Below, in pieces: positions 466 to 59,309 of a DNA stretch of 64,000 nucleotides. Numbering within the stretch: position 1 is the first letter of the stretch; each line of letters begins with the position of its first letter. The notes beneath the pieces were generated by a model. It ran no database searches. It saw nothing but the letters and a program-made list of their open reading frames with translations, and was not told the DNA's origin. Made by a program: the position numbers and the translations under genes. This DNA is from Clavelina lepadiformis (lineage: Eukaryota > Chordata > Ascidiacea > Aplousobranchia > Clavelinidae): assembly GCF_947623445.1 (NCBI RefSeq), contig NC_135243.1:4342501-4406500 (forward strand). The letters are read 5' to 3'.

Positions 466-3400
466 TCACCATTTTTTGGTGTTTGTAATTCCCTTGAACA
501 AGGGCTTTTTTAAACTTTGCTTTGCAACATAGGCCATCTCATCCCAGCAATTGCTGCTTTCGCAAACGTTGTTTAATGGATTTGCTGGATCTACTATGAT
601 GGGTCTGTAAATATAAACCAACAAGTCATGGAACAGTGGTATTGCTAAAGTGTCATGTGATCTTTGTCATTTTTAAGAAATCGTTTACGCACATTTCTGA
701 ACATTTTGATAATTCATGTCTTGCTTTTTGCTTTCGTTTCACGCGTTCTTATTCACACTCACAATGGACTGTTTGTTTTTATTATTCTTGGTATATTCTT
801 TCTTACCTTGGAGCTTGAAGAGTCTCCTTCAACCATTTACAATGCCGTGAGTAATTCTCGAACCAGACTACACACAAGTTTTCATACTTTGTCAGCACCT
901 TGAACACTGCGGCAAGTCCGTGGGTCAACTAGAGACAAAAAGGTTTTAGAATATACCCACGTTTAAAAGTTACAAGGTTAAGTGGTCGCTTTATTTTCGA
1001 ACCGAATGCTGTTGTTCAGCAGCATTTGTTTTATATCTTATTATGCAAATGATGATTCAAAAATACAATCTTTTGCTTACGCTGAATCTTATGGGTTTTC
1101 CATGCTTCTCCCAGGTATAAATGGTTATCAGTTCCAGCGTGTAGGAATTTGGCATGCGCCGGTAACTGCAAAAAGTCCGACATAACATGTGTCAACGTCG
1201 AAAGTGTACAAGGAAACTTCGGATCAAATGCAATCACAATGACAGTGCAGTATATGAGAGCTCGTAAACGGTTGCCAATGATATAATAATGGTAATTGCT
1301 TGCAGTAAAAATATTGGTATTTACCGCTGCACTTAAAAGAGCCGTATATACTAAAATTTTGCGATTGCCAGGATTTTGTTAGACGTTATACGGAAAGGTT
1401 AAGAAAGCGTATTAGACAAATCAGACGCCATGACGTTAGTGTTGTTTATTAGTGTGGGAGTTTTTCTAGAAAATGGAGTGTTAAAAACGTTCAAGTCAGA
1501 TGTTTAAGTTAGCCTGAATTGTACCTGAACATCGATAAAATTTGACTTTTTTGGTCCAAAATCGCAGTCTTGGTCTTAACCGTTTTATTGTAAGACTTAG
1601 AGATACATCATTCTATTGGAATTTCATGAAAGAATAGCCTAAGACAGGGGCGGGCAACTTCTTCGGTCGGCGGGCCTGATATGAGAAAATGAAGTACTTG
1701 GCGGGCCGGATTCCTGAATAGATTGAAACGCAGCTTTGTCTTATTAATGTTCATGGTCGAAAATGTTTGCTCATAAATGTATGTAGACCCGAACAGAACA
1801 AGTAGATTTATGGCCATCTTTCTCAGGTTGGCAAACTTGGACTTATTCAGTGACGCAATACAGGGATTGCGGCAGAATGTGGCCGCAGGCCACATTATCA
1901 TGTAAGACCGGAAACTGTCTGCGGGCCGCTCAAAATCCCGTCGCGGGCCGGATCCGGCCCGCGGGCCGTATGTTGCCCACCCCTGGCCTAAGACATACTG
2001 AAGTGACATGCAAAATTTTAGCGAGCCCCATGGGGGATTTTTCGATAAAATTCCATTTTAGTAATTTCACTTCATAACAAAAACAAAAAAATAGGCTTTT
2101 ATACAAGCATCTACGGCGCATTAAAAAATTTTTTGCACAACGCAAACCGGTCAACAATCTTACCAGCCGGGTTCACCAAAGTGATTTTGTTATGTTTTAC
2201 CACAAAGTGTTATACAATTTTCCAAATAATCTATGATTATGATTCACGGAAAATTTCCATCTGTTAAGTGAGGTTTCAATGCCCAACTTTCCATATAGGC
2301 TAAATAACTACCTGCACTCAGAGGTCGCTTTTCCAAATGAAACGCGCTTCCAATGTTTTACGAGCCTTATAAGATCGTGAAGTATTCTGGGTCGCTGACG
2401 AACAAATTCAACTTGAAGCTGAAGCAGGCAAGTATTCAGCAACAGGAGCTGATCTGTGTTCTTACAATTTGCAATCAGCTCGAAAATGGCGTTCTTGTCC
2501 TCTGTAGAGCGATATCTAGTTTTACCGGATATATGAGAATTTCATAAAGTAGAGACATCTAATGATATACTGAAATGAATAACTATTTTATTGGAAGAAC
2601 GTTGATGAAGCGCGCTGACAACAATCAGTATTGGTGGATTCTTATGCGAAATCACAGAACAAATCTGTTCTGATAAGGGTAAACCTGTTGTTGGCGCTTG
2701 ACCAAGTAGGTCGTTACAAGGTAGTAAATCAACGTGGTGTATGTGATCATCATTGTAGCATTTGTATTGGAATCTCAGAGCATGATTCGTTTCCTCGCTG
2801 ACTAGTATTCGGGTGGCCAGCAGGGAGCGCTGGAGAGCAGTTTTGACTCGACGAATGCAGACCGCTAATCGGTTTGCACTGGCGCGATCCCCCCCAAATA
2901 AGGGCATCCCTTCCAGAAACATGACCATGTCGAGATCCGAGTGACCCTTCAAGCAAGTTCTTTTTCCGTATGAGCCGCCCTTCGTGAAAATAGGTTGTAG
3001 GTTACTTGCGAGTCAAACAGTTAGCCTAAACTTTAAGGGAGAAGATTCAACGGTATTTGGTCAACAAATAGGAGACGCCTGAGCGATACACTAAGCAATG
3101 TAATTAATCCGAACCTTGGAAGCTAAACCTTGTTAACTCCAAGTTCGTGCTTAGGCAATACAAAATAAACCTATTTGCACATATATGTTTGCTCGTTTAG
3201 GCCTAATTTTTGTGATCTGGAAAAGTATGGGCTATTAACAAAAATGGGTTGATCACTTGATCACTGAACACTCAAGTTTCACTTACTCTAATAACTTGTG
3301 AGACATCTAGCGGCAACTGTTCAATAAGGAAATCAACCAGAATATTGACCTCTTTATTGCATTCAGTGCTTCCAGACAAAACTGGTGTTAAACCATGCTG

Positions 3401-4911
3401 AACGTAATCCCTGACGTCACAAGGTTGCAAGATATCGAGCATGTTTAAAGCAGGAAATCGCAAGGCCAACGAATCTAAGTTGTACAAAAATTGTTTAAGC
3501 TTACAAAGGTTAAAGGTTATGCCTGCTGCATTTAAGCCACACAAAATCTTATATTTATTTGTTTGTTGATATAATTGTTGTTTCCAAGTCGATTGTCTTT
3601 TATCATATTTTCCAAGCTTTGGATACTTCTGAAATATTACGTAGGCACTCATAGGCTATCTATTTAGTACTTGAGAACTTTGAGTTTATTACATACAGTA
3701 AAAATCTGTATAGGCAGACATGGCGGAACATCCTAGGCACCCCGCGTTTCCTACTAGTTGGGCCCAATCCCGCCACCTTTGAAAACCAAAATCGGTAAAC
3801 CTAAAGTCGAGCTTCAGATTTCGGATTACAAATTATAACTTACTTAAACTGGGCTCACCCACTTCGAAACATCCCGCCATCGCTGGCTATAACTTATAGG
3901 TGAAGCAAATCTGTTACAATTTGTATTTTTGAACGTATCACTTACTTCGCACTTGAGTAGTAAACTGATGTGCATCTCTTTCGTGCTGTTCTCTACCGTG
4001 TACGTCACCTAGTGATACTCCACAGAGACGACATTTTGTTAAAGTACCAGGAGCAACGAAGCTTTGAAGTCTCTCATCCGGGACTTCCCAGAAACTTTCG
4101 TCTTCTTTCGAAGCTTTCGGCTTCATAAGTTTCGACGTCGATTTGCTCCTGGATTTTTGATAAAAAGGCACAATCCCTCCATCTGTCAAGTGCTTATCAC
4201 CGACATGGGTCTAGGTGTATAAATTAACACAAATTATGCTCACCGTGACATATCCAGTGCCCCAAATAGATTAATTTTAAATTGCAACTTAGGAACAAAA
4301 GAAAGTATAAAGCAAATCGAACAACCGTTAACTAATAAATTCTTAAATTCAGGGGAAAGATGTAATCGTTGCTCTTGTTAAAGAAATGTCATGTCCATTA
4401 CTCCATCCGCCCCAAGTGATGAATCACATAAGAATACCCTACCCATGAAAACCACTGGAATACTTGATTTCTTATCAGATGCTTCGATTAATATATTTTA
4501 GTTTTCATAATTCGTGATCAAACTTATAAATGTGGCACCACAAAATTGACAAATAGCAATTTTAACCTTAGCAAAGGCCATTCCCCCTAATTATTTGCCG
4601 GTGGAATTGTTATTTTATCATGCTATACTGGTTACCATTTTATTTTTCGTTCCCCCACAAACAATAACCAAAAATAAAAACAATACAATCCAGTAGACCT
4701 CGCCTATCTACCTGGTTGAAAACCTATGTATTTACAAACTTAAAGTGTAAGCTAAGTTACCTTATCGATTTACCTGCATGAGTTTTTGGTATACCTCGAC
4801 ACCGCACTTCTCGCAAACTGATTTGTCAAAATGTTTATTACGTAGATGCATTTTCACTGCAGAGGGGCTGCCGAACTGCCTACCACATCGGTTACAGTGA
4901 TATTTGTGCAT
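466..4911 (-). CDS. Three C2H2 zinc fingers fused to 2'-5'-oligoadenylate synthetase (OAS-like), 8 exons
   Basis: Exons: 4911-4774, 4210-3946, 3474-3287, 2979-2685, 2501-2312, 1165-1081, 928-807, 604-466. All phases agree, giving 473 codons plus stop. The ATG at 4911 is the first after an in-frame TGA at 4935-4933. Residues 6-27, 33-53 and 106-127 are C2H2 fingers; the second is split across the exon 1/2 junction, which supports the fusion. The OAS unit follows: GGSYGKRT (198-205), SDLD (catalytic Asp212 and Asp214), VDLLP (third Asp, 281), an LQ.EFV..RP..L..LIRLVKHW helix in exon 5, a YTLELITIYTWE segment in exon 6, and RPIIVDPANPLNNV then W-DEMA in exon 8. This matches OAS nucleotidyltransferase plus OAS1_C along its whole length with the triad intact. 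OAS enzymes make 2'-5' oligoadenylate on binding dsRNA; that this one does so, and that the fingers sense nucleic acid, is inferred. The fingers are not part of vertebrate OAS. Confidence 0.88.
1645..1985 (-). mobile_element. Non-autonomous hAT-type element (341 bp) in an OAS intron
   Basis: Exact 8-bp target duplications (gcctaaga, at 1637-1644 and 1986-1993) flank terminal inverted repeats of the CAGGGGYGGGCAAC type, with GC-rich subterminal 'gcgggcc' repeats unlike the AT-rich surroundings. Inside, on the minus strand at about 1829-1728, a frame reads NLLVLFGSTYIYEQTFSTMN, which resembles the C-terminal dimerisation region of ZBED/Charlie-like hAT transposases. It is therefore an internally deleted derivative of an autonomous hAT element that kept the transposase C-terminus. 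It lies in the intron between OAS exons 5 and 6. Confidence 0.85.
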
Positions 4912-7944: not shown

Positions 7945-7964
7945 CTTTATTTGACTGATCACAG
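7945..7964 (+). promoter_or_regulatory. Splice acceptor just before the start codon (possible spliced-leader site)
   Basis: A T-rich stretch ends in a CAG at 7962-7964, eight bases before the ATG at 7973. An in-frame TGA (7952-7954) lies within the acceptor region. Either a non-coding exon lies upstream or this is a trans-splice acceptor, which is common in Ciona. The latter is inference; the leader itself is added in trans and cannot be seen here. Confidence 0.45.
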
Positions 7965-7972
7965 ATTGCATT

Positions 7973-10900
7973 ATGGTCAAAATATTTGTGGGGCGATTGG
8001 CTCCAACAGTGTCGTCTGCCCAACTTCGTGATCTTTTTGAAAAGTATGGACCAGTATCGGACTGTGACATTTTACGTGATTATGGATTCGTACACATGTC
8101 GCACGAATCCGACGCTCAACGAGCAATCAGCGCACTTGACAAGTACGACTTATGTGGAAGTCGACTCAGTGTTGAACTGTCAACTTCTCGGTCGATGAAG
8201 TCGTGTCAACTAACTGTGAAGAACTTACCGGGTGGGATAACCTCCCAGGATTTACATAAGCTTTTTAAGAAATTTGGAACAGTTACATTATGCAGAATAA
8301 ATTCGGACAGTGCCACCGTACATATGCGCTTTCCATCAATGGCAACTAATGCTGTAAGAAATTTAAGTGGCGAAACATATCGTGGAAATGTTTTATCCGT
8401 TCAATTTGCGAATACTTCTATTAACAAGCCAGTGGCTGCAGTGTTGCCAAAGCCTGCTGTGAAATCGAATGGTTCAATTGATCTATCAAATACTAATGGC
8501 ATCTCCAACCCAGGTAAGCATCATTGTTTCTTCAGTGACAGTCTTAACAGTTGTATAAGATATACACTGGTACAAGTTTACAAATGGCATGTTTTTACTA
8601 GATTGCTGTTAGTACAAATGCATGAAAGTCATAATTTTTACATTAAAGTGTTTACAGAACAAAGAAAACCAATCATAACGATGGCAAGCAAACCCAAACA
8701 GCCTGCATGGAAACAGCCTGAAGTGATTTTAGATAAAAATGCAAGCACTGGGTCATTAACCCCTGCTACAAGGTAAGTTTTCTTCCTTGTTAAATGTCAG
8801 TTGTGCACTCAACTTTTTGCAGATCTTTTCTTTAGTTGCTCCATTTTTCATGAATTCTCATTTACTTTCACATAAATTTGCTCTTTCAAAGGTGTTCTAT
8901 TGAACAATGAACACAGATAGTTATTTAACTGATTCATAATGATGATTCCAAAAGGATTTATCTGGGCTAGACTGATGTAGTAATTATGGTATGGTATGGG
9001 AATTTTATAGGCTATCATATATAACATGGCATAATTTATAACATGCCGACTTAATGGAGTTTTCATATATATGTATAAATGCTTTTATCATCTCATGATC
9101 ATATCATGTGCAGTCAATTTGTGCATGATTCATTATCAATTATTCATTATCAGTCCAAAATCATTAATTAGTCATGATTTGGTGATATTAAGTGGCATGT
9201 TATCGATACATAATTAATCGAATATGAACGTGATGAATTTTGAGTATATGTATTTCCACTAGACAATTGCTGTAATTGTGTGTATGAAATTACTTTCACC
9301 TCTCATAATTTACTTACTGTTGTAGTGCTGTATGCAAATTTATTATATACGTATGTGTGTATTATGCAGTGTTTTGTACAGTTATATATAAACATAGTAA
9401 GGCAGTCAGGAACAGGAAAATAGTGGGCTTTTTACATGTGCTTTTATATGTAGAACTGATTGCACAATTGCAGTCCACTATTAAACTCAATAATCTCTAG
9501 CTACTTGGCCTTCCCTGTTAATTTTTCAGCCACTGTTACAGTATATATATATCATACCTTATATAAACTTACAGCTCTAATAGAAGAAAAAACATCAACT
9601 TTGTATAATGCAAATTTTGTAATTTGCATTTGACAAAATTTGCATACACTACATAACAAGCTGCTTTCTTTACGATTATGCAGTAGATGTAATGTTTAAA
9701 GTCTGCTATAATGTGTCATCCCTGCTGTTTTAACACGTAATTATGATAAGCTTTGGCGACTTTTACTGGTTCCCAGAGCCTATTAGTGTTGTATTCTAAT
9801 CGGCAAGTAGCTTGCATATAAAATGTTTGTCCGCAATACCGAGCACTTCATTTACAAAATCTGCTACTGTTGTCAGCATCAGCTCCTCGATTGCTAAAGT
9901 GCAATTGGAGTTTTGGTTTATATATATTTATATATATCTGTTAAAAGCGTCAGGACTTTGTCATTTAAAATTATGAAGAAGACTCATTTTCTGCGCAGTG
10001 CCGTGCCTTCCACCAAACAAGGAAAACCATCGGAGTTGAGAGAAGGCCGACAAGTGCGAATTAAACAAGGGTTAAAGTTCTTACAGTGAGTTTGAATACC
10101 ATTGAAGTTTGGATTTTATTCTATTTTGGTACATAGAAAGCTATTATACACTATATACAGCTACATATATAATAGTATGTATTATATAATAGTATATAAT
10201 AGCTATATTTAATACATACATATGGAAAGCACTTTTTTATGTCTGTGTGTATTACATATTACATGACTATATATGTATCAAAACTTCAGAAGTATTTATG
10301 ACATGATATAAAAGAACAAATAGAAAATCCAATCATGTTTATGTGATATCTGTATATATATATAGTTTAATTATGTATAGGGCTATAGGCTTTATACTGT
10401 GCAATTTATCCATAAAATAGAACTGACAGTATTCGTAGGATCGTAATCTTGTTACTTGCGAATATTAAACCTTATGGTCCTGCTAATGGCCCTTCTTATA
10501 TAAAAATATGCATAAACTTGGGAGGAAACAATACTGTTAAACCACAGCTTGATTTTTGTTTCAAACAATCATTCATGTATTTATAGATCTCCTATGCCTT
10601 GGAGTGGTACACGCGAACACTATGAGGTAACAAAACTAGTTTATTTAACATGTTGCTGTAATTAGTTATGTCAGCAGAATTATATAGCAAATATTGATTA
10701 CGACCATCACATAGCACGTAGTTTCTGTTGACAAGAGCTGTCATGTGATCCCTGTGGTCATATTTCTGATTCTGTAGCTTGTTTATTTTCAGCTTGCATT
10801 TGTGATTTCATAGTCTGGTCCTATAAATAGACGCTATCTCACTGTTAATATATTTGCAACACGCAAATGTTTATTATCCATGCAAATACTGATTTGTTAG

Positions 10901-22302: not shown

Positions 22303-23517
22303 TTAATGAGCGTTACTTTCTGCTGAGTCACTATCTTCAGAGACATTTTGATTATCATTGTTTAAGTCAGATCGGCTAGCATGAACTATGACAGAATGAT
22401 TACGAATAGCATATATTTTATGACGAATAACAGAAACCAACATAGGCAAGGTTAACTTGAAAAACCAGAAAGTGAAAACAATGCTCCAAATATAGCTCAA
22501 AATCAACAGAATAAAACAAAAGCCACTAAGTATCGGCGATGTTATGCTAGAAATCATCTGTAAAAACACATTAGTTAAGGTGTTATCAATATTTTTCTGT
22601 ACATATAACATATCTACTGTATTTTCTGGATTCGTTCTACTTCCAATAAAATGGTATAATTGGTCATGCATCAAACGTGCGCGACTGACAGCTTGTAAAA
22701 TACCTGATAAGTCGTCAAAGTCGTTACCACTGCTAGGAAACAAATGAACAAAGTTAGAAAAATCTATTTCAGAGTAGGGTGCTTGTACAGTAATTAGAGC
22801 AGGTAAAAGTTGCTGGACGTTCTCATGGCGCATAGAGAGTGTATAATTATCAAACACATAATAAGCATCATTAATAAGAAAAGTCATGATTTTGCCAGGA
22901 GTATATTTCTCTACATACTTAACTCCCTTATAAACAACATCATTCGTGCCAACCTGGCCAATATATTTCGTCCCATTATTGTCACTAAATTCTACGAGAG
23001 GTCGAGAGGCAAAAAACTCCCCATGTTTCAAATTATGCAGTAGCGTAGCAGTGATATTTTGGCATGCTACTTCAATCAGTAAATCGCCCAATGCCACGCC
23101 AGTGGCAGGACGACCCAAAAGTTGTGTTAGGACTTCACTTGGAAACAATCGTCCCACTAAAAAATACATATTTGTCAGATACTCTTGTATTTGACATTCA
23201 AGAAAGTGTATATCAGACGTCAAAAAATGAAATGAATCGCTTGTTATGTCATTGACTTCATTCAAAAAATATGTTTCAGCTGTGTGAAAAGAAAAGGAAG
23301 GAAAAGGTATATCATTTTCATCTGCGATTTTGCCCAATTTTATGCCATCAAAACCATTGCAGCTGTAGGGTCTTAAAATCAAACCCCCTGGTGTACAAAT
23401 GGCGTCTGACCCATAACATTTTTGTACGGGACCTGGACAGCGACTTCGTTGATGAATGCTGATGCCTAGAGATTTTATCTCCAGACGAATGAGCTCGTGG
23501 TTCTTGTTATAATGCAT
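22303..23517 (-). CDS. env: Env-like glycoprotein frame, C-terminal part with membrane anchor
   Basis: 404 codons from the first Met; the frame is open from directly after the TAG at 23583-23581 and in the same phase as the upstream part. It holds several Cys and N-glycosylation motifs (NIT, NGT, NYT). A long hydrophobic segment near residues 330-365 should span the membrane. A polar, Ser/Asp-rich tail of about 35 residues follows. This is the layout of a class I or baculovirus-F-like membrane subunit, but I see no furin-type site I would insist on. Whether the intervening TAG is read through, avoided by splicing or simply inactivating cannot be told from sequence alone. Confidence 0.6.
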   Translation of the reverse strand: MHYNKNHELIRLEIKSLGISIHQRSRCPGPVQKCYGSDAICTPGGLILRPYSCNGFDGIKLGKIADENDIPFPSFSFHTAETYFLNEVNDITSDSFHFLTSDIHFLECQIQEYLTNMYFLVGRLFPSEVLTQLLGRPATGVALGDLLIEVACQNITATLLHNLKHGEFFASRPLVEFSDNNGTKYIGQVGTNDVVYKGVKYVEKYTPGKIMTFLINDAYYVFDNYTLSMRHENVQQLLPALITVQAPYSEIDFSNFVHLFPSSGNDFDDLSGILQAVSRARLMHDQLYHFIGSRTNPENTVDMLYVQKNIDNTLTNVFLQMISSITSPILSGFCFILLILSYIWSIVFTFWFFKLTLPMLVSVIRHKIYAIRNHSVIVHASRSDLNNDNQNVSEDSDSAESNAH

Positions 23518-23580
23518 TAAAAGTTCTTCGTGCTTTTGACCTATACGTTTGTAAGGACACTTGGCTTTTATTTTCGAAAC

Positions 23581-24210
23581 CTACCACACAAAGGTATTTG
23601 TCGACAGAGTGCAGCTTCCCTGGATAAGCTTGCAGTTCGTCATGGCTCCAATTGCACTTGATAACTGGTCTGTAGCATGATCATAAAGTGCAGTAGATTT
23701 AATCAGAATGGCGTTATAAGCTGTATGTGTATAGCCGTGTGGCCAGACATACTTGACGGAATTAGAATTATGAGTACTCCATGTGAAATCATTAGAGCTT
23801 AGTAACGGACCATAGCCAGTAGCATGTTTCGTTCTGACCCAATCTGCACAAGCTTCCACGCTTGGTGCAGGATTAATGAGTGATTTCTCATCACACGTTT
23901 TGGCCCCAAAAAAGAAATAAGTAGTCTTAAGAGTCGTAGAAATAACTGAACATTTGAATATGGGTATGATTTTCCTCTTTGGAACAGGATCATAGATCGA
24001 CACTCCACATTTTTGAATTAGTGTTGCATTCTGTCTCACACACTTATGAGGTTTGGGAATCAGATATTCTCCAGTATGAATATTATCATGACACAGCCTT
24101 AAATGCAGCCGTGTTCCGCTTATGCAGGAAAAAACAAAAATGCTTACAATACACAATGAGATGATTGAAGAACGCATTCTATCGAAAACGTGCAGGCTTT
24201 GTGATGACAC
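23581..24210 (-). CDS. env: Env-like glycoprotein frame, N-terminal part, ends at in-frame TAG
   Basis: This 209-codon frame starts inside the end of pol. A second Met at 24177, just past the pol stop, gives a better N-terminus: a hydrophobic segment (about residues 14-30) that looks like a signal peptide. The following region is Cys-rich with an N-linked glycosylation site (NAT), as expected for an extracellular domain. It ends at TAG (23583-23581). The same frame then stays open through 22303, so the two parts together have the size and layout of an errantivirus-type envelope. No specific Env family is recognised. Confidence 0.65.
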   Translation of the reverse strand: MSSQSLHVFDRMRSSIISLCIVSIFVFSCISGTRLHLRLCHDNIHTGEYLIPKPHKCVRQNATLIQKCGVSIYDPVPKRKIIPIFKCSVISTTLKTTYFFFGAKTCDEKSLINPAPSVEACADWVRTKHATGYGPLLSSNDFTWSTHNSNSVKYVWPHGYTHTAYNAILIKSTALYDHATDQLSSAIGAMTNCKLIQGSCTLSTNTFVW

Positions 24211-27200
24211 GTCCAGTTCTCGTGGTATACTGAGGAACAGGTTCTTCGTCAGCGTTTATGTCTTGTGACACAGGATGTGAGTCAATTTCCTCTTCTGCAA
24301 TAGAAAATGGTAAGTCAGATTGCAAAATTAAGTTTTCATCATCGTGGCATGAATTATTTTGACTGCTTGTGTTTGTCAAAAAACTTTCAGCAGGATTTGG
24401 TACAGGTATATGTCCAGCTTTCAAGCGATTTATGCTGATATTATCGATTCTACTATTCAAATCAATTGTGAAAAATTTTTCTTGACGGTCAATAACAGTA
24501 TATGGTCCACTATAGGGTCGCTGCATACCTGTGCGAACACCGTCATGCCTTATAAAGACATGTGAACAAGTTTTGAGTTCTGGATCAATAAATGTTTTGA
24601 TTGGGTATGGTTCATGCGGTGGAACATATCTTAACGTGGCCATAAATTGAGTCAGCTGTTCTACATATTTTGACTGTGGGATTATGTCCAAGCTCGGTGT
24701 TTCAAAAAATTCCCCGGGCAACCTTATTGAAGTACCAAAAACTAATTGACTTGGGGCGCATTCAATATCCTCCTTTACGCTTGCACGAATGCCTAGCATG
24801 ACCCAACCTAAATGAGAATACCAATCGTGGCTACATGAGTAAGCTTTCAAGGCTGTCTTGAGGGTTCTGTGAGCACGTTCTAGCATTCCATCGCTTTGCG
24901 GATGATGCGATGTTGTGTGTATCAACTTAGTGCCCATGAACTTTGCCATTTCGTGCCATAGCTGAGAGGTAAACTGTCGACCTCTGTCAGAAGTTATGAT
25001 CTTTGGGACGCCAAAGTTTGCTACCCAATTCAATATGAAGGCGTCGGCACATGTCTTTGCAGTAATGTCTTTTAGTGGAATTGCAACTGGATATCTTGTG
25101 TATCTATCAATCACTGTCAACAGATAAGAATAACCATTAGATACAGTAAGTGGTCCAACAATGTCAACGTGGACATGCGAAAATCTCTCGTCTGGTTTCT
25201 TAAATGTTTTCAATGGTGCAACAGTATGTCTACGCACCTTTGTTTGTTGACAAGGAATGCAAGATTTGCACATGTCCCTAATTTCAATCATCATTTTAGG
25301 CCAAACAAAACGTTCTGCTATGAGTTTTTGAGTTACCTTTATTCCTGCGTGACTTAACGAATGAATCGTGTCAAAGATTTGTTTTCTGAAGGAAGCTGGC
25401 ACAACTGGTCGTGCTTGCTTTGTGGATATATCGCATAAAATGCTAACGCCATGATCCGGTAACGTCACCCGTTTCAATTGCAGCGAGCTTTCTCCATGGA
25501 GTATTGCATCCAACGTGCGATCTGTATGTTGATGACTGGCCATCTGCAAATAATCTATGGAAGGCAAGTCATAATTTATACCAGCCACTGTTATTCGTGA
25601 AAGGGCATCAGAAACTACATTGGATTCACCTGAAATATGTTCAATTACTGGACAAAACTGTGCAATATACGACAAATATCTGAACTGCTGTGCTGTGGCA
25701 TTGTCTAATTTAGAATGAATGCCCGTGACCAATGCTTTATGGTCAGTGAACAGACGGAATTGTCGACCATCCAAAAAATATCGAAAATATTTGATGCTAA
25801 GGTATAAACCAAGTAATTCGCGATCATACACACTATATTTACGTTGTGCTTTGGTAAAAGATTTTGAAAAAAATGCAAGAGGCTGCGGACAGCCATCTAT
25901 TACTTGTTCTAACACTCCAGCACAGCTGACGTCTGAAGCATCAACAGAAAGTCTGATTTCCGCGTCGTGTACCGGAAATGCCAATTGTGTGGCTTCGCAT
26001 AACGCCTGCTTTGTTTCCTGAAATGCTTGCCTGGCAATCGGAGTCCATATGACGCGTCTTCTGCCCGAACCAGTGCCTAAAAGCTTGTTAAGCGGATCTT
26101 GGATTCCTGCAGCATTGGGTAAAAATCGTCTATAAAAGTTCACCATACCTAAAAAGCGACGAAGCTCCTTGATTGTCACAGGTAGTGGGTATTTTTCAAC
26201 AGCCTCAACTTTGGATTTGATTGGACTGGCTCCATCTGCATTCACAGTAAAGCCAAGAAATTTCACTTCTGTAGCATTAAACACACATTTTCTTTTGTTA
26301 ACAATGATGTTGTGTTCCTGAAAGCGTTGCAAAACAGTTTCAAGATGCTTCTTGTGTTCTTCAGGTGTGGAACTAAATACAATGACATCATCAATATAAT
26401 TGAAAGTGTAATCTGACAGTCCTCGTAAAACATTATCTATGCAACGTTGAAAAGTTTGTGAACTGTTGCACAATCCCATGGGAAGTCTGACATATTGGTA
26501 AGTGCCACTTGTGGTGGTAAAAGCGGTTTTGGGAATGTCTTGATCTGCAATTCTAATTTGGTGAAAACCTTTGAGCAAATCCAAAACTGAAAAATATTTT
26601 GAACCGGCCATGGCATTTGGGAAATTATTAATTAACGGCAGGTTGTAAGTATCAAATTGTGTTTGTTGGTTCAAAATTTTATAGTTGTTAACAATCCGAT
26701 ATTGACCAGCATCTTTTTTCTGTACTAACATTATCGGCGAACTGTAGGGAGAATTACTTCGTTCAATCACACCAAGTTCAAGTAATTTGTTGAGCTCTTG
26801 TTTGAGTATCTTTTCTTTCTCAGGAGACATCCGATAAGGTCTGCAACGTATGGGTTCACCTGTGGTTATAATGTGATGAACAGCATTGTTTATTGGCCGC
26901 TCGGAATAAGCTGAAACATCAAAAACATTGGGATAAGTTTTAGTCAAATCTGCAAGCAATCCATCTGACGTCATGTCAGCTTCTGCAGCCTGCGAAATAG
27001 AAGAAGGCTTAGTTTCCTGACAGCAGCTTGCAGAAAAAGGCCGTTTGGGTGTGGTAAAATCTGTGACGTCATTTTTGGCACGTGGCAGTGTCAAACGCTT
27101 AGCAGTGAGATCAATATTCAGACCAAAATGTATCAAGAAGTCAGAACCAATGATAGAATAAGCTATATCACTACTCATTTCAAAATGCCACAAAAATGTC

Positions 27201-27493
27201 CTATTGAGGTTTAATGAAACCTTCAAAGGCTCATTGCCCTTGATTACAATACGTGAGCCATTAATAGCATTATAAAATTTCTGCTTAAAACCATGCAAAA
27301 AGTAATCACTATGTACTTTTATCATACTGACTGGGGACCCTGTGTCTACCAAAAATTTAATCCCAGTTAATTTATCAGTAATAAAAAATAGGTGTGATGA
27401 TAAAAGTCCACCAACAGTTCGCAACCTAGAACGAACTGTTGGTTCTAGGCGTTTTTTGGACGTGGCCCTGTCCACGCACAAGGTGGAACACAT
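24179..27493 (-). CDS. pol: Retrotransposon Pol: protease, reverse transcriptase, RNase H, integrase
   Basis: The frame is 1104 codons, open throughout, in -1 relation to gag. Residue numbers count from the frame start at 27493, though translation probably enters by frameshift. Protease: DTG near 50-52. RT: first Asp near 305, RLPMGL near 336, YIDD at 366-369. RNase H: Asp518, Glu559, Asp584. Integrase: zinc-binding His711/His715 and Cys745/Cys748, then catalytic Asp777, Asp836 and Glu872 (D,D-35-E). Domain order is that of Ty3/gypsy. All catalytic residues I looked for are present, so the enzyme set appears functional. The 3' end overlaps the start of the env-like frame. Confidence 0.96.
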   Translation of the reverse strand: MCSTLCVDRATSKKRLEPTVRSRLRTVGGLLSSHLFFITDKLTGIKFLVDTGSPVSMIKVHSDYFLHGFKQKFYNAINGSRIVIKGNEPLKVSLNLNRTFLWHFEMSSDIAYSIIGSDFLIHFGLNIDLTAKRLTLPRAKNDVTDFTTPKRPFSASCCQETKPSSISQAAEADMTSDGLLADLTKTYPNVFDVSAYSERPINNAVHHIITTGEPIRCRPYRMSPEKEKILKQELNKLLELGVIERSNSPYSSPIMLVQKKDAGQYRIVNNYKILNQQTQFDTYNLPLINNFPNAMAGSKYFSVLDLLKGFHQIRIADQDIPKTAFTTTSGTYQYVRLPMGLCNSSQTFQRCIDNVLRGLSDYTFNYIDDVIVFSSTPEEHKKHLETVLQRFQEHNIIVNKRKCVFNATEVKFLGFTVNADGASPIKSKVEAVEKYPLPVTIKELRRFLGMVNFYRRFLPNAAGIQDPLNKLLGTGSGRRRVIWTPIARQAFQETKQALCEATQLAFPVHDAEIRLSVDASDVSCAGVLEQVIDGCPQPLAFFSKSFTKAQRKYSVYDRELLGLYLSIKYFRYFLDGRQFRLFTDHKALVTGIHSKLDNATAQQFRYLSYIAQFCPVIEHISGESNVVSDALSRITVAGINYDLPSIDYLQMASHQHTDRTLDAILHGESSLQLKRVTLPDHGVSILCDISTKQARPVVPASFRKQIFDTIHSLSHAGIKVTQKLIAERFVWPKMMIEIRDMCKSCIPCQQTKVRRHTVAPLKTFKKPDERFSHVHVDIVGPLTVSNGYSYLLTVIDRYTRYPVAIPLKDITAKTCADAFILNWVANFGVPKIITSDRGRQFTSQLWHEMAKFMGTKLIHTTSHHPQSDGMLERAHRTLKTALKAYSCSHDWYSHLGWVMLGIRASVKEDIECAPSQLVFGTSIRLPGEFFETPSLDIIPQSKYVEQLTQFMATLRYVPPHEPYPIKTFIDPELKTCSHVFIRHDGVRTGMQRPYSGPYTVIDRQEKFFTIDLNSRIDNISINRLKAGHIPVPNPAESFLTNTSSQNNSCHDDENLILQSDLPFSIAEEEIDSHPVSQDINADEEPVPQYTTRTGRVITKPARFR
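27411..27457 (-). promoter_or_regulatory. -1 ribosomal frameshift signal: slippery heptamer plus stem/pseudoknot
   Basis: On the minus strand the gag codons CCA AAA AAC contain the canonical A AAA AAC heptamer (27457-27451). After an 8-base spacer comes a perfect 11-bp stem (27442-27432 with 27421-27411) around a 10-base loop. Seven bases of the spacer (27449-27443) are exactly complementary to seven loop bases (27431-27425), so an H-type pseudoknot is possible. A -1 slip here moves from gag into the pol frame two codons before the gag TAG. All of this is read directly; efficiency is unknown. Confidence 0.85.
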
Positions 27494-28785
27494 TTATAGG
27501 CGTCACGACCAAATTTCTGATGAAAATAGCAAAATCTTGGGCGACTGTCAAAATGATTTTCCCTTCTGGAATAATTGCCCTGTGTACGATTTGGTATGGC
27601 TCTTTCAAAGCGACGGGGTCTGCGGTCGTCAAAGCCATGGTTGAACGCGGGTCGACGTTGTTCTGGTATCCTTGGTCTAAAATCAGACCGACTAAAACGG
27701 TTTGTGGGACCTGAAAATTGCCGATTAAAAGTCTCACGGCTTTCTGGACGTGAAAAATTTGCAGATTGATATCCAGACCTCGGGTTTCTATTACCATATG
27801 CAGTGTCATCAGAAGCTAGCTTATTAAATTTATCAGTCAGGGAGCAAATTTGACTTTCCAAAAGTCTATTGACGACAGCCTGTCGATCGTTATGAGCAGA
27901 GTTGGAGTGATCATTGAATTCTGGTCTACGCGACTGGGACATGATTTCGTCCGCCCGTAAAGCCAAATTGTCCAAGTCATCCTCTAAATACCCAACCAAG
28001 ATTTTACGTATATCAGAAGGCATTTTATCAAGAAACAAATTACGTAAAAGTGATTCAATCTGGGGAATAGATCTGTTCTGAGTGCCCATAAATTTCCTTA
28101 TATCCCGAAGCATTTCAGACGGTTTCTGGTCACCTAGGCTCGTATGATGCAGTAAACGATTTAAGCGATCGTGTTCGCTGACCTCATGTTCACTTAACAA
28201 TGCATTTTTAAGAAATGAATAAGGTCTATTCTCAGGACGATTGAAAATGACATATTCAACACTCTCTAAGTGACGTGGTCCCAAATTAGCTATGCATAAA
28301 TCAAACCGTTCAATTTCTGATGTTATATGATGTTGTCTAAAAATACTCTCCGCAATGCCAAACCACAGTTTCGCATTGTGCGCTGAGAACGGGGGTAAAT
28401 TGGGAGGAGAAAAAATTCTATCAGATTTACGTTTGGAAGAATTAGGGTTACCAAACTTAATAGAAAAAGGATTGTCATCACTAGCAGTGGTATTATCATT
28501 TGCAAACCGTACAGAACCTTCACCAGTACCAGCCATCGCCCGCCTACGTGAAAAATTATCCATTTCTATTTCAGTGTCAAAATCCAAAGTATCAGCATTT
28601 ATGTTAGAGCTATCAGCCATATCAAGACCACTATGTTCAGGATAACCTGAATCAAACAAATCACGCTTAATTGTGCTTAAATTCGAAGGGCGTAAATTAC
28701 GTCTTCGATCAATAAATTTACGATAGGGACCAGAAAGAGAATTAAGAAGATTATACTTAGAATTCATTAAGGAAAGAAAATACAC
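27445..28785 (-). CDS. gag: Retrotransposon Gag (446 aa)
   Basis: The open frame lies between the primer binding site and pol. The N-terminal half is polar. A capsid-like middle is followed by an Arg/Asn/Phe-rich basic tail, and the C-terminus carries a Cys/His cluster (CYFHQKFG....KCVPPC) of the kind seen at the end of invertebrate gypsy-type Gag. A second Met seven codons in (28767) is an alternative start. The frame closes with TAG at 27447-27445, just after the slippery heptamer at 27457-27451, and overlaps pol in the -1 frame. Gag would form the particle and bind the element RNA. No stop or frameshift breaks it. Confidence 0.88.
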   Translation of the reverse strand: MYFLSLMNSKYNLLNSLSGPYRKFIDRRRNLRPSNLSTIKRDLFDSGYPEHSGLDMADSSNINADTLDFDTEIEMDNFSRRRAMAGTGEGSVRFANDNTTASDDNPFSIKFGNPNSSKRKSDRIFSPPNLPPFSAHNAKLWFGIAESIFRQHHITSEIERFDLCIANLGPRHLESVEYVIFNRPENRPYSFLKNALLSEHEVSEHDRLNRLLHHTSLGDQKPSEMLRDIRKFMGTQNRSIPQIESLLRNLFLDKMPSDIRKILVGYLEDDLDNLALRADEIMSQSRRPEFNDHSNSAHNDRQAVVNRLLESQICSLTDKFNKLASDDTAYGNRNPRSGYQSANFSRPESRETFNRQFSGPTNRFSRSDFRPRIPEQRRPAFNHGFDDRRPRRFERAIPNRTQGNYSRRENHFDSRPRFCYFHQKFGRDAYKCVPPCAWTGPRPKNA

Positions 28786-28960
28786 AACACATTAAAATAA
28801 AAATCCATGTACCGATTGTTTGAAAGAGGATGTCTTTAAGTCCGTTGAAGTCCCGCGACGTTGAGAACGTTCCAATTGTCTTCTAAGTTGTAGATGTCCT
28901 TCGATGATGAGAAGGCGTTCCAAGATTCCGAGAATCCAGGATTGAAAAGCGAAGTTTCCA

Positions 28961-32275: not shown

Positions 32276-35200
32276 TTATTGACAATTTTTTTCGTGTTTC
32301 GCAAGGTCTCGTTTTTGACAATAGCCTTTTTTGCACTTCGAGCATACGTGAGCAAAGTCGTGGGTGTGTTTTCTTTGAGTATGTTGGAGATGGGACGGTC
32401 GACTACTAAAAGACATTGGACAATATTTGCATTTGTAAGGTCGTTCCCCGGTATGTGTGCGTTCGTGTATTTTCAAAACGTCGGCGCGTTTAAACATTTT
32501 ACCACAGTGCCGGCATTTGTGAGTGCATACACCCGAGTGCTTGGTCATGTGACGTTTAAGATCCCATGATTGCCCAAATTTTGCGTCACAAACGGAACAT
32601 GCATATTTTAAATGCTTTTCGTGAACTTGGCGGACGTGTCTTTTCAAGAAAGCTGACTGGGAGAACTCCTTACCGCACTGTTTGCAAGGGTACGTTTGGT
32701 GGGTGAGTTCGTGAACACGTAAATGTTTCTTAGAAGCGAATCCTTTTTTGCAAGTTTTGCATATAAAATGCTTTTCATCCTGTAGTAAAACGTCTTTGCT
32801 GACACTGGAAGAAGCAGCTTCATCCGCAGGAGCACTTAATTTGCATTCAGGTAGTTTTTCACAAAGAGTCTCTGCTTGCTTGCTTTCTAAATGTCTGAAC
32901 AAAGCTCTGCCGTTGAAGAAAACTTTCGCACACTCATCACAAGGTATAATATCATCAATGTCTGAAACAAAAACCACGGAAATAATGTTCATACGAGCAA
33001 CCAATAGTTTTTGCATCTGTACTAAAGTATATAGCCTACCGTATTGCTTTGCATACATTGCTTTATACGACTAAATACAGTATGTAGTTTTAAGATGTTT
33101 AGAAATAATGTACAGAACAACATATTAAACAAATTAATCATGGACTTACGCAATTTTGTGCATATAATTTCTCCAGTGCTTTTCCTACTTTCTTTCCGTT
33201 TTTTAGATGGTGTAGCATAAAATTGCGGCTCTTCAGCAACTAAAATTTCTGTTCCGCTGACAATGGGTTTCGTCGTGCCGTGATATACTTTGCCAAGTTG
33301 CTCAAATGCTATCACATTACTTTCTTCCTTGCTTCTAGAAAATTAATCGGTTCGATTTTGTTATCTTTTAATTACAGTATTTTGATAAATTAATAACATT
33401 ACTGTATTTATAGGCAGATTGTTTTTGTTACAGAAATTTTATACTCAACTCTGAAACATACAAAGTCTAACAACATTAAGTCTAAGAAACACAAGTCTGA
33501 TGAAAATGGTGTTTTGAGATTGTTAGATTAAACGACTAGCCATTTAAAGTTCGTGTTTTTTAAACTGAGAAGCAATAAAAAAGATTGATTAACGGTTGAG
33601 ATATTTTAGAATTAGATATAAATGGCAAAAACAAAATGTTGGTTTTATATTTAGAATATATTTTTAAATACATTTTAATGCAATATTTTTCAAGTACCTG
33701 TTATAACTACTTACAAGCTCAACATTTCATAACAGTGAGAAAGATTTAAAAAATGTGTTAAAATTCTATTTTACAACTAATTGCTGTAACTATCCACTAC
33801 GAAATGGAAACAAGATCAAGAATATAAAAGACAAAGTAAACTTCAAAAAGTTTTACCTTGCGAACTTAACGTATCTTAGCCAGTTACTTTTCTTTTCATC
33901 TGAGCCGTCAATACAATGTGAAAGTTCCCCGTCTGTGTATATCTGCAGCAATCATCAAAAAAGTGAGTGTAGTTTACTATTTTGCAAGCAAGATTTAACA
34001 ACTGATAAACCGTGCAAACTTGAAATGCCGATTGCCTATATTTGTCAACCTCGTTCAACATATGTTCTAATGTTATGAAATGTGCATTTCAAACAAAATA
34101 TTCCTTTTTTCTAACGTAATGCCCGTTGTTAACTTAAATTTATGTTGTGTATATTTTGAGGAAACCTAACTATTACATTTTCGTCTTTTGTCTTTTGGTT
34201 TTTGTCAATGTGCTACATTTATGACCAAGACATCGGAACGGGGCAAGCTGTCGAAAGTTGATAAAAACAGCATGAAAACAAACTTAAGATATTTAGAAAT
34301 GTTTTGCGATTAAGCGTAGCTGAAAAATCGTCCAATGTGCTTACTATCGTTGTTTATTGTTTACAAGTGTCAACAAAATAATACTTTTACCCACCTGCCA
34401 CGCGTATCCTTCTTGAACAGCTAGGGTTAGTTGTGTCAGGTTTTTTATGTCGACAAGGTCACCTTCTAAAGGACCAAAAATTGAGTCTTTCTCAAAATCC
34501 TTTTCTGTCCAAACTCCAAGTCTGCCAGGAAAGGCGTGTGATGGCCCGATGGTTATCCCGGCTGGGCAGGTTCGCCGGGCTCGTTCATCAGTGTTCTGTA
34601 ACGTAATCGTTGAGGTATCGTGTTATGAAGAGTCTTTTCCGAAAATCGTAAAAGAATCGCCCGTTTATCACAAAAGTCTTGCAAATGAGTTAACCGTGTT
34701 AACAATTTGTCTAAAGTCTCCCACCGTAACGCCATCATCACAAACGTCATAAAGCACTTCTCGGTATTTATGACGTCAAAATGTAAAACCATTATGGTAA
34801 GATCAAATACGGATCTTACAAAATTGAGCGGAATCGTATGTTTTTTACGAAATCATCAGAAAAAATTTAGTATTTCGTTTGTAAGATAAAAGTACCCTAT
34901 GTTTGAAGCAAGTTAATTGTTTCAAAAATCGTGATGACTCGGATCAAGCTTGACTCGACTTTCCACACACTGGCCTGGACTAAACACAGAGTGCTTTTGA
35001 GCGAAGAAAATACACTTCTTTCGTCCAAATATATTATACAGCAAAGTGTAACTTGAAATTAAAAATGTTTGTCTAAAACTCTCTGGGAAAGCAAAACATA
35101 TAAAAAAATCAGTATTTTTGTTTTTGGTAAGATTTGGTTTTACTGGTATCGGTAATTTGGTACTTGATTTGAGTCGGATTACTTCATTCAAACGACATAA

Positions 35201-37100
35201 TTTGAGTCTTGAAAGATAAATAACTTAACTTGACACGCAAATTGAGTTTTATGACTTTGTTACGAAGCTGATATCAATCAAGAGGTGACAACTGACAAGG
35301 TTTAAATGACTCCCCATTTCCATGCTTCGTCTGATAAATACAATGAGCAAGGTTAATGGAGTTGCTTTGGAGTCGGAACAGAGAAAATGTTAAAACTTTT
35401 CCTTTTTGTTTTCAAAAACCGCCTTTATCCAGTTTGATGCGTCCCCAGATTAAACGATTGTCACAACCAATTTTTTACGCTCACTTATGGTTAATTTCAT
35501 TGTAAGTGTATAATTAGTCTATAATAATGTAACAGGAACATCCATACTGTATATTGTACAGGAGCCAGCGCGGGAAAACAAAAAAAAGTCATAAACATAC
35601 TCAGCTACTCACCCATTTCACGAGAGTATCAACCACGATAACCATTGTTCTAATTTTTCGTATCCCAGTTTGTAAGTTGTTGTTAATTTTTCTTTAAACG
35701 AACAGAAACTACAGAAATCTACCTTAAAGTTATCTTACTGCACATTCTTATGATACAATCTAAACAATAGTATATGGAAATTGATTCTTTCATCTAAGTA
35801 CGTCGGGCAACCGGATCTTAAATGCAAACGGTTTTAAACATAAATATAGACAATTATTGATCATACAGCTAGTTGTAAAATTTTAACAGTTTTGATTTGG
35901 AGGACTGATACATGCAGTAAGTTTAACGTAGCCAACTGGGGTTTAAGTGCAGTTAGATTTAGATTACAAAGAAAATTTAGGTTAGGTTTAAGCTACAATA
36001 TGTTATAAATTTTAAGTTATATTTACAGAAAGCAGTAAAAATGTGCTATTTTTCCAGTGAAATAATAACAGCTTAATATATTTTTCGAAAGGTAACAATG
36101 GGTAAATGGTAAATGGTAACAATGAAACAATGGTAGAACCTTTTTACCTGGCACAACTGTATCTTATAAATAACTTGGTATAGCGTGACCTGTAATACAA
36201 CAAGGCCAAGTGGACCAATGAGATAGTCTTGATGACATTTTCATATACAGAAGATTTTACAAGAAATCGAAAAACAGGCACTGGTAACTGTAATCACGCC
36301 AGTGTTTAATTTGTGCGAGTATTAAGTGAAACTTGCCTACTAGTGTACGTAACATAAAAACCTCCACCTACACCTACTAACTAAGGTGAGTAATCTTTAA
36401 ACCTGGCTTGCAATAAATTCTGTCTGACTACCAGTAGCTGTTTTTCTTTGAGGAGCCTTCTTCTACTGTAGATTACTTTGGTTATTTTCAGTTTTATTAA
36501 TTGTTTTAAGGTTGACATCCTTTGCTTAATTATGACGTCATGGTGTTTTGCCAGACGCCGTGTTGCGCCTGAAACACAATGATGTGTGTTTCAGTAATCT
36601 TTCATAGTGGTCACAGCAGTATGCAAGAAATACAGCAGAAGGCTGTAGAAGGCTGAAATAAATGTACGTTGGAAGCTACTTTTCACAGTTTCTCGGTCAC
36701 CTAAGTTAAATTTTATAACAAAGTAACCAGAGCGTAACTTAAAGCTTTTTCTTAATCTAAATCTAACTTCAGTTAAAACCTAAATAGCTTAACTCAATTT
36801 TTGTATTGCCTACCCATAGCCCATTCCTCTAACTTTACCGCCTGTCTTGGACAATGGGTTATGTGACCAATTGACCAGCGAGCTTGTGGTGAAATGTTCA
36901 CCTTGATTTCACCAGTTTCTTTAACGTTGCAATTAACTTCTTTGGCTCAAGTTTTGTTCTATCTTGGGTATTGGCCTGATTTGCCACTTTTACATTAGGG
37001 TCGAGGTAATCGTAATCGTTATTTGAAATCAATTGTCTGTTGTTTTGCTATATGAACAAATCCCAGATTTACAAACCGGTTTCCAATCGAAACCTTTATT
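32200..37100 (+). repeat. Left outer arm (contains copy A)
   Basis: Inverted partner of about 57.1-61.9 kb: exon lengths of copies A and E agree (201, 86, 185 bp) and intron and upstream blocks match in inverted orientation. Arm ends are approximate. Confidence 0.7.
32276..34595 (-). CDS. PRDM9-like copy A: PR/SET domain plus six C2H2 fingers (5' end unresolved)
   Basis: Exons: 34595-34395 (201 bp), 33942-33857 (86), 33334-33150 (185), 32961-32276 (686); phases agree and give 385 codons. The first three encode a PR/SET domain like PRDM7/9: [29 protein letters not shown], then E-S-N-V-I-A-F. The segment that reads ELLVWY in PRDM9 is EILVAEE here, so methyltransferase activity is doubtful. The last exon begins with a degenerate Cys/His unit and then six fingers, the last ending HEKNC. 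No start codon is in frame before exon 1; an ATG-ATG-GCG at 34738 that corresponds to the start of copy E runs into this exon in another frame, so either a small intron is missed or the 5' end is broken. Confidence 0.78.
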
Positions 37101-37184
37101 TTAACAATCAGCTTTAGATGACCTTAAAATGAATGAAACACTTACTCGTAAATTTATACTTGTTTACGGTTAAAGCAAGTAAGT
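34596..37184. other. Upstream of PRDM copy A; inverted match to 57.1-59.3 kb
   Basis: No gene is seen. Short blocks (for example 36420-36560 and 36830-36880) recur in inverted orientation at about 58.0-58.15 and 57.13-57.18 kb, so this is part of the large inverted duplication. Confidence 0.55.
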
Positions 37185-37192
37185 GTAATCAG

Positions 37193-37796
37193 TAGGGCAA
37201 CCAGTTTTTTGACCTAAAAAGTTTAAATTTTGACCTTAAAATTTGCAAATTTTGACCTTATTTTGACCTAAAAAGTTTAAATTTTGACCTTATTTTGAAA
37301 AACGTTATACTGATAGTCTCTACAGTGTCTACAGCAAATTTCTAATCTAAAGCTGCATTTAAAATTGACAAAACGCTTTTCTAGTGTTGACTTTTTTTCG
37401 TTTCTGCGTATTAAGATTGACAACTTGCAGTTTCAAATGCAATGCCGTCACATCGTGACGTCACCAGACGCGCTGAAAGGCCTTCCCTCTCTTTGTGGCT
37501 TTGGTTCTAAGTATAATGTGGGGCACTGGAATTGTTTGCGTTACAAGAAAAGAGAAAAACGGAAGAATAATATTACAAAATGGTTACAAAATTACAAGTT
37601 TAATAGATTTTGACCTAAAAAGAAGACCTAAAGAAACAATTTGACCGTATTTTGACCTAACGTAACATTTTGACTTTATTTGACCTAATAACTTCTATAC
37701 CACACGTCGTACAAAGCTGAAATTTGTTTTGTGCTTGTTTGATAGCATTCTGAGCAGGTTAAAAAAAATTGACCATATTGACTTTTGGTTGCCCTA
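37193..37796. mobile_element. hAT-like MITE (604 bp) with internal TTTTGACCT repeats
   Basis: Exact 8-bp target duplications (gtaatcag; 37185-37192 and 37797-37804) enclose terminal inverted repeats beginning TAGGGCAACCA. Just inside are repeated TTTTGACCTAAAAAG/TTTTGACCTTA units on both sides. No transposase is recognised in the central 83-codon open stretch. The 8-bp duplication suggests hAT-family mobilisation. Confidence 0.8.
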
Positions 37797-37859
37797 GTAA
37801 TCAGTAATTACCTTAGTAACTAAATAAATACGTAAATAAGTATAAACGTTTAATAAATA

Positions 37860-57080: not shown

Positions 57081-59309
57081 CCTTAACGCCATGATAAAAT
57101 TCCCTTATATTTATTGTAACTTATTTATTTAATGGTAAATTGGTCACGCTGTCCATTATTGAAGACAGGCAGTTAGGTTAGGAGAATTGCAACATTTAAC
57201 TTGGGTTAACAAGAAACTACATGAAAAACATCTTCCAACATATACGGAATTTTTCTTGTGATATAGTAGAAGACAAAAAAGAGGAACATTTATTTTTCAA
57301 CAGTAAAACCTGAAAGCAGTTGATAAACACTTTGAAATAGGGTTCATTTTACAATTTAATTTCTGTAGAATGAACGTAGAATGAATCAATTCTACTTGAG
57401 CATTTGCCAGCCGAGCGCCACACAATAAAACGCAGACTCAATCGCTGTCACGCAAGGAGAAAATGAGCGGGGGGGATGGGGGCGCTAATTACAAATTAGG
57501 CCCTAGGGGTAGCGATGAAAGGCGTCAAAAGAAAAAGACCAGAAATGTATTCACATACGAATAGGTAAAAAATGCGGCAATGCGTTAGCAAACATAAGAA
57601 AACTTGACCAGCATACAAACGAATGAGACAATGCACAGATCGAAGAAAAATTGACGTTGACACACACATTAGACTAAATTAACGTATATGAGTGGAACGA
57701 ACGGACAGTGTACGATGTGAACAAGTGACTTCCAAATTGGGTAAACAAAATGCAGGGTATCTAGAACAGGTAACAACTCACACCGTAAACAAGTCACTCA
57801 CAAATTGGTTAATACAATATTAAAATGTGGTGGTTCTAACACGGGCGTATAAAAATATCTCGTGACGAAAGCACGATTGCCATGAGTTGTTTTAGAAGAA
57901 TTTTGTTCACCACATTCTGATAATCGAAAAACGTACTTTGGCGTGGTGGATCGAACGTGTACTCTGTTTGCTGTTAATCCAACCTGTCAAAGAAAGATAA
58001 CAGCTTTGGCGGCACTGCGTTTCAGGCATAAGGTAACCTCCAACAAAAGGAGATGATGTCATAATTAAACAACGCACGTAAACGCGAAACTATTGCTAAA
58101 ACTGAAAATAATCAAACTAATCTAGAGGAAGGTTCTTCACAGAAAAACTACAATTGTTAGTCAAACAGGTTTTGTTGCAGGCCGGTTTTAAAGACAATTC
58201 TAGGTAGTTAGTTAATAGCCAAGGTGAAGGTTTGTGTGTTGCGTAGACCAGCAGGCAAGTTTCACTTGATACCCACACGAATTTAACACTGGTAGAAAAA
58301 CAGTATCCCGCATATTACAGGGCCAGATTTCCTATTTTGGTTGAAAACTCTTCAGGTATATCGCGCGAGTTAACCTCGTTGTTTATTACAGATCTCACAA
58401 CAAAATAAAGCCATAGTTATAAGAGACAGTGCTGCCAGGCTAAATTGTTCTATAGTTACCGTAATTTTTCTTTTTAGGACATAATGATAAGCTGTCACTA
58501 TTTCTGAAAATATCGTGCTTTTCAAGCTTTTGTTCGGTTGTTTCTTGCTAGTCTAACTTAAATCTATACTTTCTGCAACAGATAATTAAAAACAAGTTTA
58601 ATTTCTGTCGTTTCCGTGGGTAAATAAGAATCAGTAAACATTTCTAATTTGTACAAGTTACAGTAGAACAATGGTTGTCGTGTCTAACACCTTCGTGACA
58701 TGGGTGAGTAGCTGAGGGACTGTTCCATACAGAAACAATGTAGCTAATGTACCTAAACGGAGATTCAAGTTTAACTTTTCACCGTCTTGATTGTAATCAG
58801 CCTCGTAAAAAAGCCATCTAGCTTTATGTGCTAGTCAAGTCAAGTTATTTATCTTTTAAAACTAAAGTTGAAGAAATGACATGATTTGACCCAAGTATAC
58901 CTTAAATAGAAAATTAGACTAAATTCATATCAATTGATATTTGAAGCTAAATTCTACGCAAGACAGAAACACCGCTTTTGTCAACAAGAAACGTTCGAAC
59001 GTTAAAAAGTTACTTTATTTTGTTTTGTCGTAAGAGTTATAATAAAGATAAAAAGTTATAATTTTAAGCTCCATATTGCGCGAAAATGTTTTGACAAACA
59101 ACACGTTACAGTATTTCACCTTAAAGTTAAACGTACTCGGACCCAAGTCGGGTACTTTCAAATATTGACTCGAGTCAAATCTGTTATAAAGTTTCCTGGA
59201 AAAAGATTAAAAAGTCAAGTATGTGCAAAATGTGAGTCGTGTCGAACGCGAGTCATCACGATTCTTGTAACAACTAACTTGTTTTAACATATTTTGTCTT
59301 ACAAACAAT
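55851..59309. other. Region between PRDM copies D and E
   Basis: No gene is recognised. About 55.85-57.08 kb mirrors sequence downstream of copy C. About 57.1-59.3 kb mirrors sequence upstream of copy A. A short G-run interrupts the AT-rich sequence near 57.47 kb. Confidence 0.55.

Follow-up and report, generated by a model that had tools for sequence, protein, structure and literature searches.

A gene on the minus strand of a 64,000-nucleotide stretch of Clavelina lepadiformis DNA (contig NC_135243.1, positions 4,342,501 to 4,406,500; hereafter the window) raises the question of what an oligoadenylate synthetase (OAS) does with zinc fingers. OAS proteins form a textbook antiviral branch and are described as sensors of double-stranded RNA (dsRNA) that feed RNase L. 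The comparisons made here confirmed that the predicted gene joins three C2H2 zinc fingers to an intact OAS domain. It is probably the tunicate orthologue of an ancient chordate subfamily, here called ZF-OAS and most likely the same as OAS4, with non-canonical control.

The gene extends in eight exons from a start codon at 4911 to a stop codon ending at 466, and its predicted product has 473 residues. All seven introns (152 to 1146 bases) are of the GT-AG type, the exon phases agree, and in-frame stops lie 24 and 45 bases 5' of the ATG. Exon 1 (4774..4911; residues 1-46) contains the start codon, finger 1 (residues 4-27, about 4902-4831) and the first half of finger 2, and exon 2 (3946..4210; residues 47-134) contains the second half of finger 2 (4210-4190), a variable linker and finger 3 (about 4039-3968). 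Exon 3 (3287..3474; residues 135-197) encodes the N-terminal helices of the OAS nucleotidyltransferase lobe and ends just 5' of the GGS loop (2979-2971), which lies in exon 4 (2685..2979; residues 198-295) together with Asp212 (2937-2935), Asp214 (2931-2929) and Asp281 (2730-2728). The OAS1_C domain begins in exon 5 (2312..2501; residues 296-358), where Val326 (2412-2410) occupies the place of human OAS1 Arg195, continues through exon 6 (1081..1165; residues 359-387) and exon 7 (807..928; residues 388-427), and ends in exon 8 (466..604; residues 428-473 and the stop codon). Three donors, each in frame, were tried for exon 4; that at 2685 (ACAG at the exon end, GTTTAC beyond it) was chosen because the database Clavelina protein P0001 and the Ciona intestinalis protein P0002 show the same joined sequence, and those at 2601 and 2571, which would add 28 or 38 residues absent from both proteins, were rejected. 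Intron 5, the longest, may hold a transposon remnant: positions 1608-2057 (minus strand) weakly match the hAT transposase dimerisation domain (16.2 bits, the cut-off being 21.4; E 0.009).

Finger 2 is whole only after exons 1 and 2 are joined: the unspliced frame stops three codons past the end of exon 1, and a stop codon stands immediately 5' of exon 2. P0001 is 99% identical to our model (4 of 428 residues differ) and splices in the same way through exon 7, just past which it ends, as if running into intron 7 and without the last 45 residues of the model; it bears no OAS name in the database. P0002, named '2'-5'-oligoadenylate synthase 1', is a full-length orthologue of 473 residues that aligns with the whole query (100%) at 55% identity. 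A whole-genome search with P0002 found a single locus (10 candidates scored) with seven collinear matches on one strand, which cover Ciona residues 1-354, 358-402 and 425-472; exon 1 matches residues 1-47 at 57% and the exon 8 region residues 425-472 at 67%, two of the seven matches overrun exon edges across stops, and exon 7 was unmatched in this search. The OAS1_C profile likewise detected this gene alone in the genome, by two exon matches (five candidates scored). Thus, one OAS locus was found in the Clavelina genome, and it is of the finger-bearing kind.

A preliminary description, made from the letters of the window, had given the same start, stop and junctions (4774/4210 and 3946/3474), and its coordinates proved exact in the genomic re-check. 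Its arguments for the fusion, namely the agreeing phases of the eight exons, an in-frame stop before the start and the splice needed to complete finger 2, are borne out by the seven GT-AG introns, the two upstream stops and the stops that flank the unspliced frames of both exons. The absence of the finger exons from a related ascidian was to count against the fusion; Ciona P0002 has these exons, so the fusion stands.

The OAS part is readily identified. OAS1_C scores 133.7 bits against a curated cut-off of 19.9, with profile positions 9-175 of 188 covered; the GGS loop is present, its GS aligning with S63 of human OAS1, and D212, D214 and D281 align with D75, D77 and D148, so that the GGS loop, the three catalytic Asp residues and the C-terminal domain are all as first described. 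The fold is that of an OAS and equals OAS1. The families listed up to E 10, 14 in number, include neither the Mab-21 domain of the cGAS-like receptors nor the DZF domain of ILF2, ILF3 and ZFR. The VIA-align listing was filled by OAS-domain matches, with no finger match among those listed. A structure prediction from 21 sequences reached a predicted local distance difference test (pLDDT) value of 57.7 and was set aside for fold claims.

The finger ligands are C6, C9, H22 and H27; C33, C36, H48 and H53; and C106, C109, H122 and H127, and all 12 are common to Clavelina, Ciona, amphioxus (P0020) and two sharks (P0013 and P0014). In 20,000 shuffles of residues 1-134, the C2H2 pattern, which occurs three times in the protein, occurred three times in none, twice in one and once in 381. 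The predicted model of the Ciona orthologue has the helix-and-strand pattern of C2H2 fingers, with block pLDDT values of 85-90 in fingers 1 and 2 and of 71-78 in finger 3. By ligand spacing and finger-like fold, the protein is predicted to carry three C2H2 zinc fingers, in an N-terminal part that is basic (calculated pI, or isoelectric point, 9.3).

The preliminary description had framed the fusion as a peculiarity of a tunicate OAS. This does not hold: the branch is chordate-wide and includes amphibians, reptiles and some mammals. A profile built from three sequences found 23 proteins, of which P0022 and P0023 were set aside (their printed sequences are without N-terminal fingers). The remaining 21 finger-bearing proteins, from 19 species and two further sources, belong to Clavelina, Ciona, Branchiostoma, two sharks, a reedfish, two caecilians, two newts, six squamates, a turtle, a whale, a goat and two others, the common names of the groups being taken from the genera. 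The window model, which represents the same gene as P0001, brings the alignment to 22 rows. All four ligands are kept in 22 of 22 rows for fingers 1 and 3 and in 17 of 22 for finger 2; the GS is intact in all rows and the catalytic triad is DDD in 19. Mean pairwise identity, calculated from ten representative rows picked by hand, is highest in finger 3 (0.63), OAS1_C (0.58) and finger 1 (0.57), lower in the nucleotidyltransferase lobe (0.46) and finger 2 (0.43), and lowest in the linker (0.25). The C2H2 pattern was found in none of 115 fingerless OAS proteins, a one-sided set whose named members are all mammals, obtained with a query including pig OAS1 (120 of 416 matches listed, 5 of them finger-bearing and 115 new). 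P0023 combines OAS1_C with a C2H2 pattern at the C-terminal end of the protein, so the union of fingers and OAS may have occurred more than once, or in a different order. In the whale and goat members (P0019 and P0021), the triad reads EDE, and the goat member is also without the finger 2 ligands; judging from these two sequences only, this state would fit a decay of catalysis that preceded the gene's loss in other mammals.

A tree of the OAS part was calculated with IQ-TREE after the fingers had been cut off, from 21 finger-bearing rows (P0001 excluded), 14 of the 115 fingerless rows, picked by hand, and P0022 and P0023 as outgroup. The branch between finger-bearing and fingerless proteins has support of 98/99, and that between the finger-bearing proteins and the fingerless proteins together with the outgroup 94/94. 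Clavelina and Ciona pair (100/98), the vertebrates group with two further rows (100/99), and the attachment of Branchiostoma to the vertebrates is weak (85/33). By this tree, the Clavelina gene is orthologous to the finger-bearing vertebrate OAS group. In broad outline the branching agrees with the order of the species, an argument that the group goes back to a single finger-bearing gene of the ancestral chordate, and the group looks like an OAS branch that has been lost in humans.

Do these proteins retain the switch of OAS1? On activation of OAS1, Arg195 moves onto the dsRNA, in the canonical exchange with Lys66. All 22 finger-bearing rows have Val at the Arg195 place, and Lys66 is kept in all 22 and Glu233 in 21 (one gap), so the canonical switch of Arg195, Lys66 and Glu233 is not present. 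The places of R130, T191 and Q229 differ from human OAS1 in every row with a letter there, and at that of K204 none of the 21 rows shown has Lys, whereas 8 have Arg; K or R is found at the K199 place in 22 of 22 rows and at the K60 place in 20, and Lys213 is mostly kept. It is plausible that the ligand or the control has changed, and the change from Arg195 to Val is more direct support for this than the fingers by themselves.

The usual receptor of the pathway also seems to be lacking. The whole-genome search with the nuclease domain of RNase L and IRE1 found no RNase L, which a strongly diverged gene could have escaped. The sole KEN-domain locus found, with two matches at C4:5500948-5501625, is IRE1, its frames matching the IRE1 luminal domain and the IRE1 nuclease among solved structures. 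This fits the earlier statement that RNase L is a vertebrate enzyme. Hu et al. (PMC6307210) likewise report RNase L as absent from four sponges and from eight further invertebrates, tunicates being outside their table.

Taken together, the ZF-OAS reading, which the sequence comparisons make the probable one, starts from a layout in which a tandem pair of C2H2 fingers is followed by a loose linker, one more finger and an OAS nucleotidyltransferase with intact triad. The basic N-terminal part would bind nucleic acid or a protein partner and would position the enzyme or switch it on, and the enzyme would join ATP or other nucleoside triphosphates into short oligonucleotides. Because Val stands at the Arg195 place while Lys66 and Glu233 are kept, the enzyme should be controlled otherwise than by the known form of the canonical Lys66/Arg195 exchange on dsRNA. 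The acceptor pocket is changed as well, at the R130 and T191 places, and for this reason the product may be something other than classical 2'-5' oligoadenylate (2-5A). With no RNase L detected, its receptor in tunicates may be a different one. A wider idea, which we offer tentatively and hold to be rather doubtful as a whole, is that the finger-bearing OAS represents an older form of the chordate pathway, in which the choice of ligand (RNA, DNA or a nucleic-acid-protein complex) would lie with the fingers, the oligonucleotide messenger would differ from classical 2-5A and the receptor would not be RNase L; OAS1/2/3, gated by dsRNA through Arg195, would be later, and humans would have kept the newer branch.

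Several observations weigh against the ZF-OAS reading. No finger scores above cut-off with the Pfam profiles (the best, zf-C2H2_4, has 22.8 bits against 27), and because of this the finger assignment rests on ligand spacing, conservation and the Ciona model. Five members are without the full ligands of finger 2, two catalytic Asp residues are lost in whale and goat, and the third is lost in the caecilian P0010 (DDN). Support at the root is weak (49/10), and the tree tool flags a meeting of long branches, namely Artibeus OAS2 and both outgroup rows; because the outgroup branches are very long and the root so weakly supported, we make no claim of finger gain or loss. Part of the dsRNA contact surface remains (K199, K60 and Arg at the K204 place), Clavelina has Thr at the T188 place, a position also tied to 2' specificity, and P0023, without N-terminal fingers, likewise has Val at the R195 place; Val may thus be the older condition there and not something that came with the fingers.

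Some of these points would suit an ordinary dsRNA-sensing 2-5A synthetase working like OAS1, with the fingers as a passive element of localisation or stability, and the intact GS and nearly constant DDD, the mostly kept K66, E233, K213 and K199 (as K or R) and the OAS1 fold agree with it. However, we consider it unlikely, given the altered R195, R130, T191, Q229 and K204 places and the genome search that found no RNase L; moreover, fingers 1 and 3 are conserved about as well as the OAS part, which would be odd if they were passive. Others would suit an adaptor driven by its fingers, which would bind RNA, DNA or protein while the OAS fold serves as a scaffold, as in OASL, and enzyme activity is secondary or lost: the EDE and DDN members have kept the ligands of fingers 1 and 3. 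Yet DDD stands in 19 of the 22 rows, those of amphioxus, the sharks and both tunicates among them, a sign of selection for catalysis that makes the adaptor a still poorer candidate. That a finger gene merely lies beside an OAS gene, the two never being spliced together, might be argued from the truncation of P0001 at exon 7 and from the database proteins being possibly all predictions. Such an artefact is very hard to reconcile with the same join in Ciona, amphioxus and 18 other proteins, mostly vertebrate, with a finger 2 that is whole in neither exon 1 nor exon 2, and with one collinear locus matching most of the Ciona protein, and we give it hardly any credence.

Elsewhere in the window, an ordinary RNA-binding protein gene with two RNA recognition motifs in one frame (7955-8773, plus strand; RRM_1 97.8 bits) adjoins the OAS gene. 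Frames of a retroelement of the long terminal repeat type, with a reverse transcriptase (RVT_1 121.2 bits), occupy 22306-28791 on the minus strand, and a long frame downstream in this element could be envelope-like, a candidate. PRDM2_PR is matched above cut-off at 39315-39659 (minus strand; 49.9 bits) and below it by a piece at 59271-59645 (plus strand; 19.6 bits), and C2H2 finger arrays lie at 32279-33070 (minus strand) and 61197-61649 (plus strand). The regions 32279-39659 (minus) and 59271-61649 (plus) are possibly duplicated PRDM-like genes.

Among known systems, the DZF proteins of the NF90-NF45 type (ILF2, ILF3, ZFR) share a nucleotidyltransferase fold related to OAS, and ZFR carries zinc fingers. 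Searches of viral contigs for relatives of the OAS part gave 47 pattern matches, none of which was confirmed. Human and pig OAS1 share with the finger-bearing group the OAS fold, the GS loop, the three catalytic Asp residues, Lys66, Glu233 and Lys213; they differ in having no fingers, and the group replaces Arg195, Arg130 and Thr191 and has no Lys at the Lys204 place in the rows shown. Ciona P0002 has all 12 finger ligands and DDD, and differs in sequence divergence only; its database name is silent on the fingers, and a Ciona OAS was modelled in PMC6307210 (Hu et al. 2018). The word zinc is absent from the main texts, as distinct from the supplements, of five papers on OAS or CD-NTases (PMC9964502, PMC6307210, PMC10732462, PMC9854896 and PMC11171313), passages of a pangenome paper (PMC12373286) contained nothing on OAS, and no title or abstract start among the literature matches listed describes a finger-bearing OAS.

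The closest known counterpart is OAS4. PMC9964502 (Eckhart and Sipos 2023, citing Wang et al. 2022 on OAS4) describes it as 'OAS1 in the ERAP2-RIOK2 region', a vertebrate paralogue outside OAS1/2/3/OASL and older than OAS1/2/3, which occurs in some amphibians, sauropsids and mammals, cetartiodactyls among them, is lost in humans, bats and pangolins, and has properties for which tests are called for. RIOK2 synteny was not found (Rio2_N is on C3 and the gene on C4; ERAP2 was not searched for), and synteny need not survive such a distance. The finger-bearing OAS has a compatible spread (whale, goat, reptiles, amphibians), from which it is most likely OAS4, and it differs in the tunicate, amphioxus, shark and reedfish members added by this analysis. 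In short, what was known so far is probably the OAS4 paralogue, and what is new would be the tunicate, amphioxus and shark members, the N-terminal finger triad and the altered switch. A finger-bearing OAS without Arg195, conserved in animals as far apart as tunicates, amphioxus, reptiles and hoofed mammals and standing as the sole OAS found in a genome without detectable RNase L, makes two questions testable: the role of OAS before RNase L existed, and the other ligands and messengers of the OAS family. If the two are the same gene, the uncharacterised OAS4 gains a concrete domain layout.
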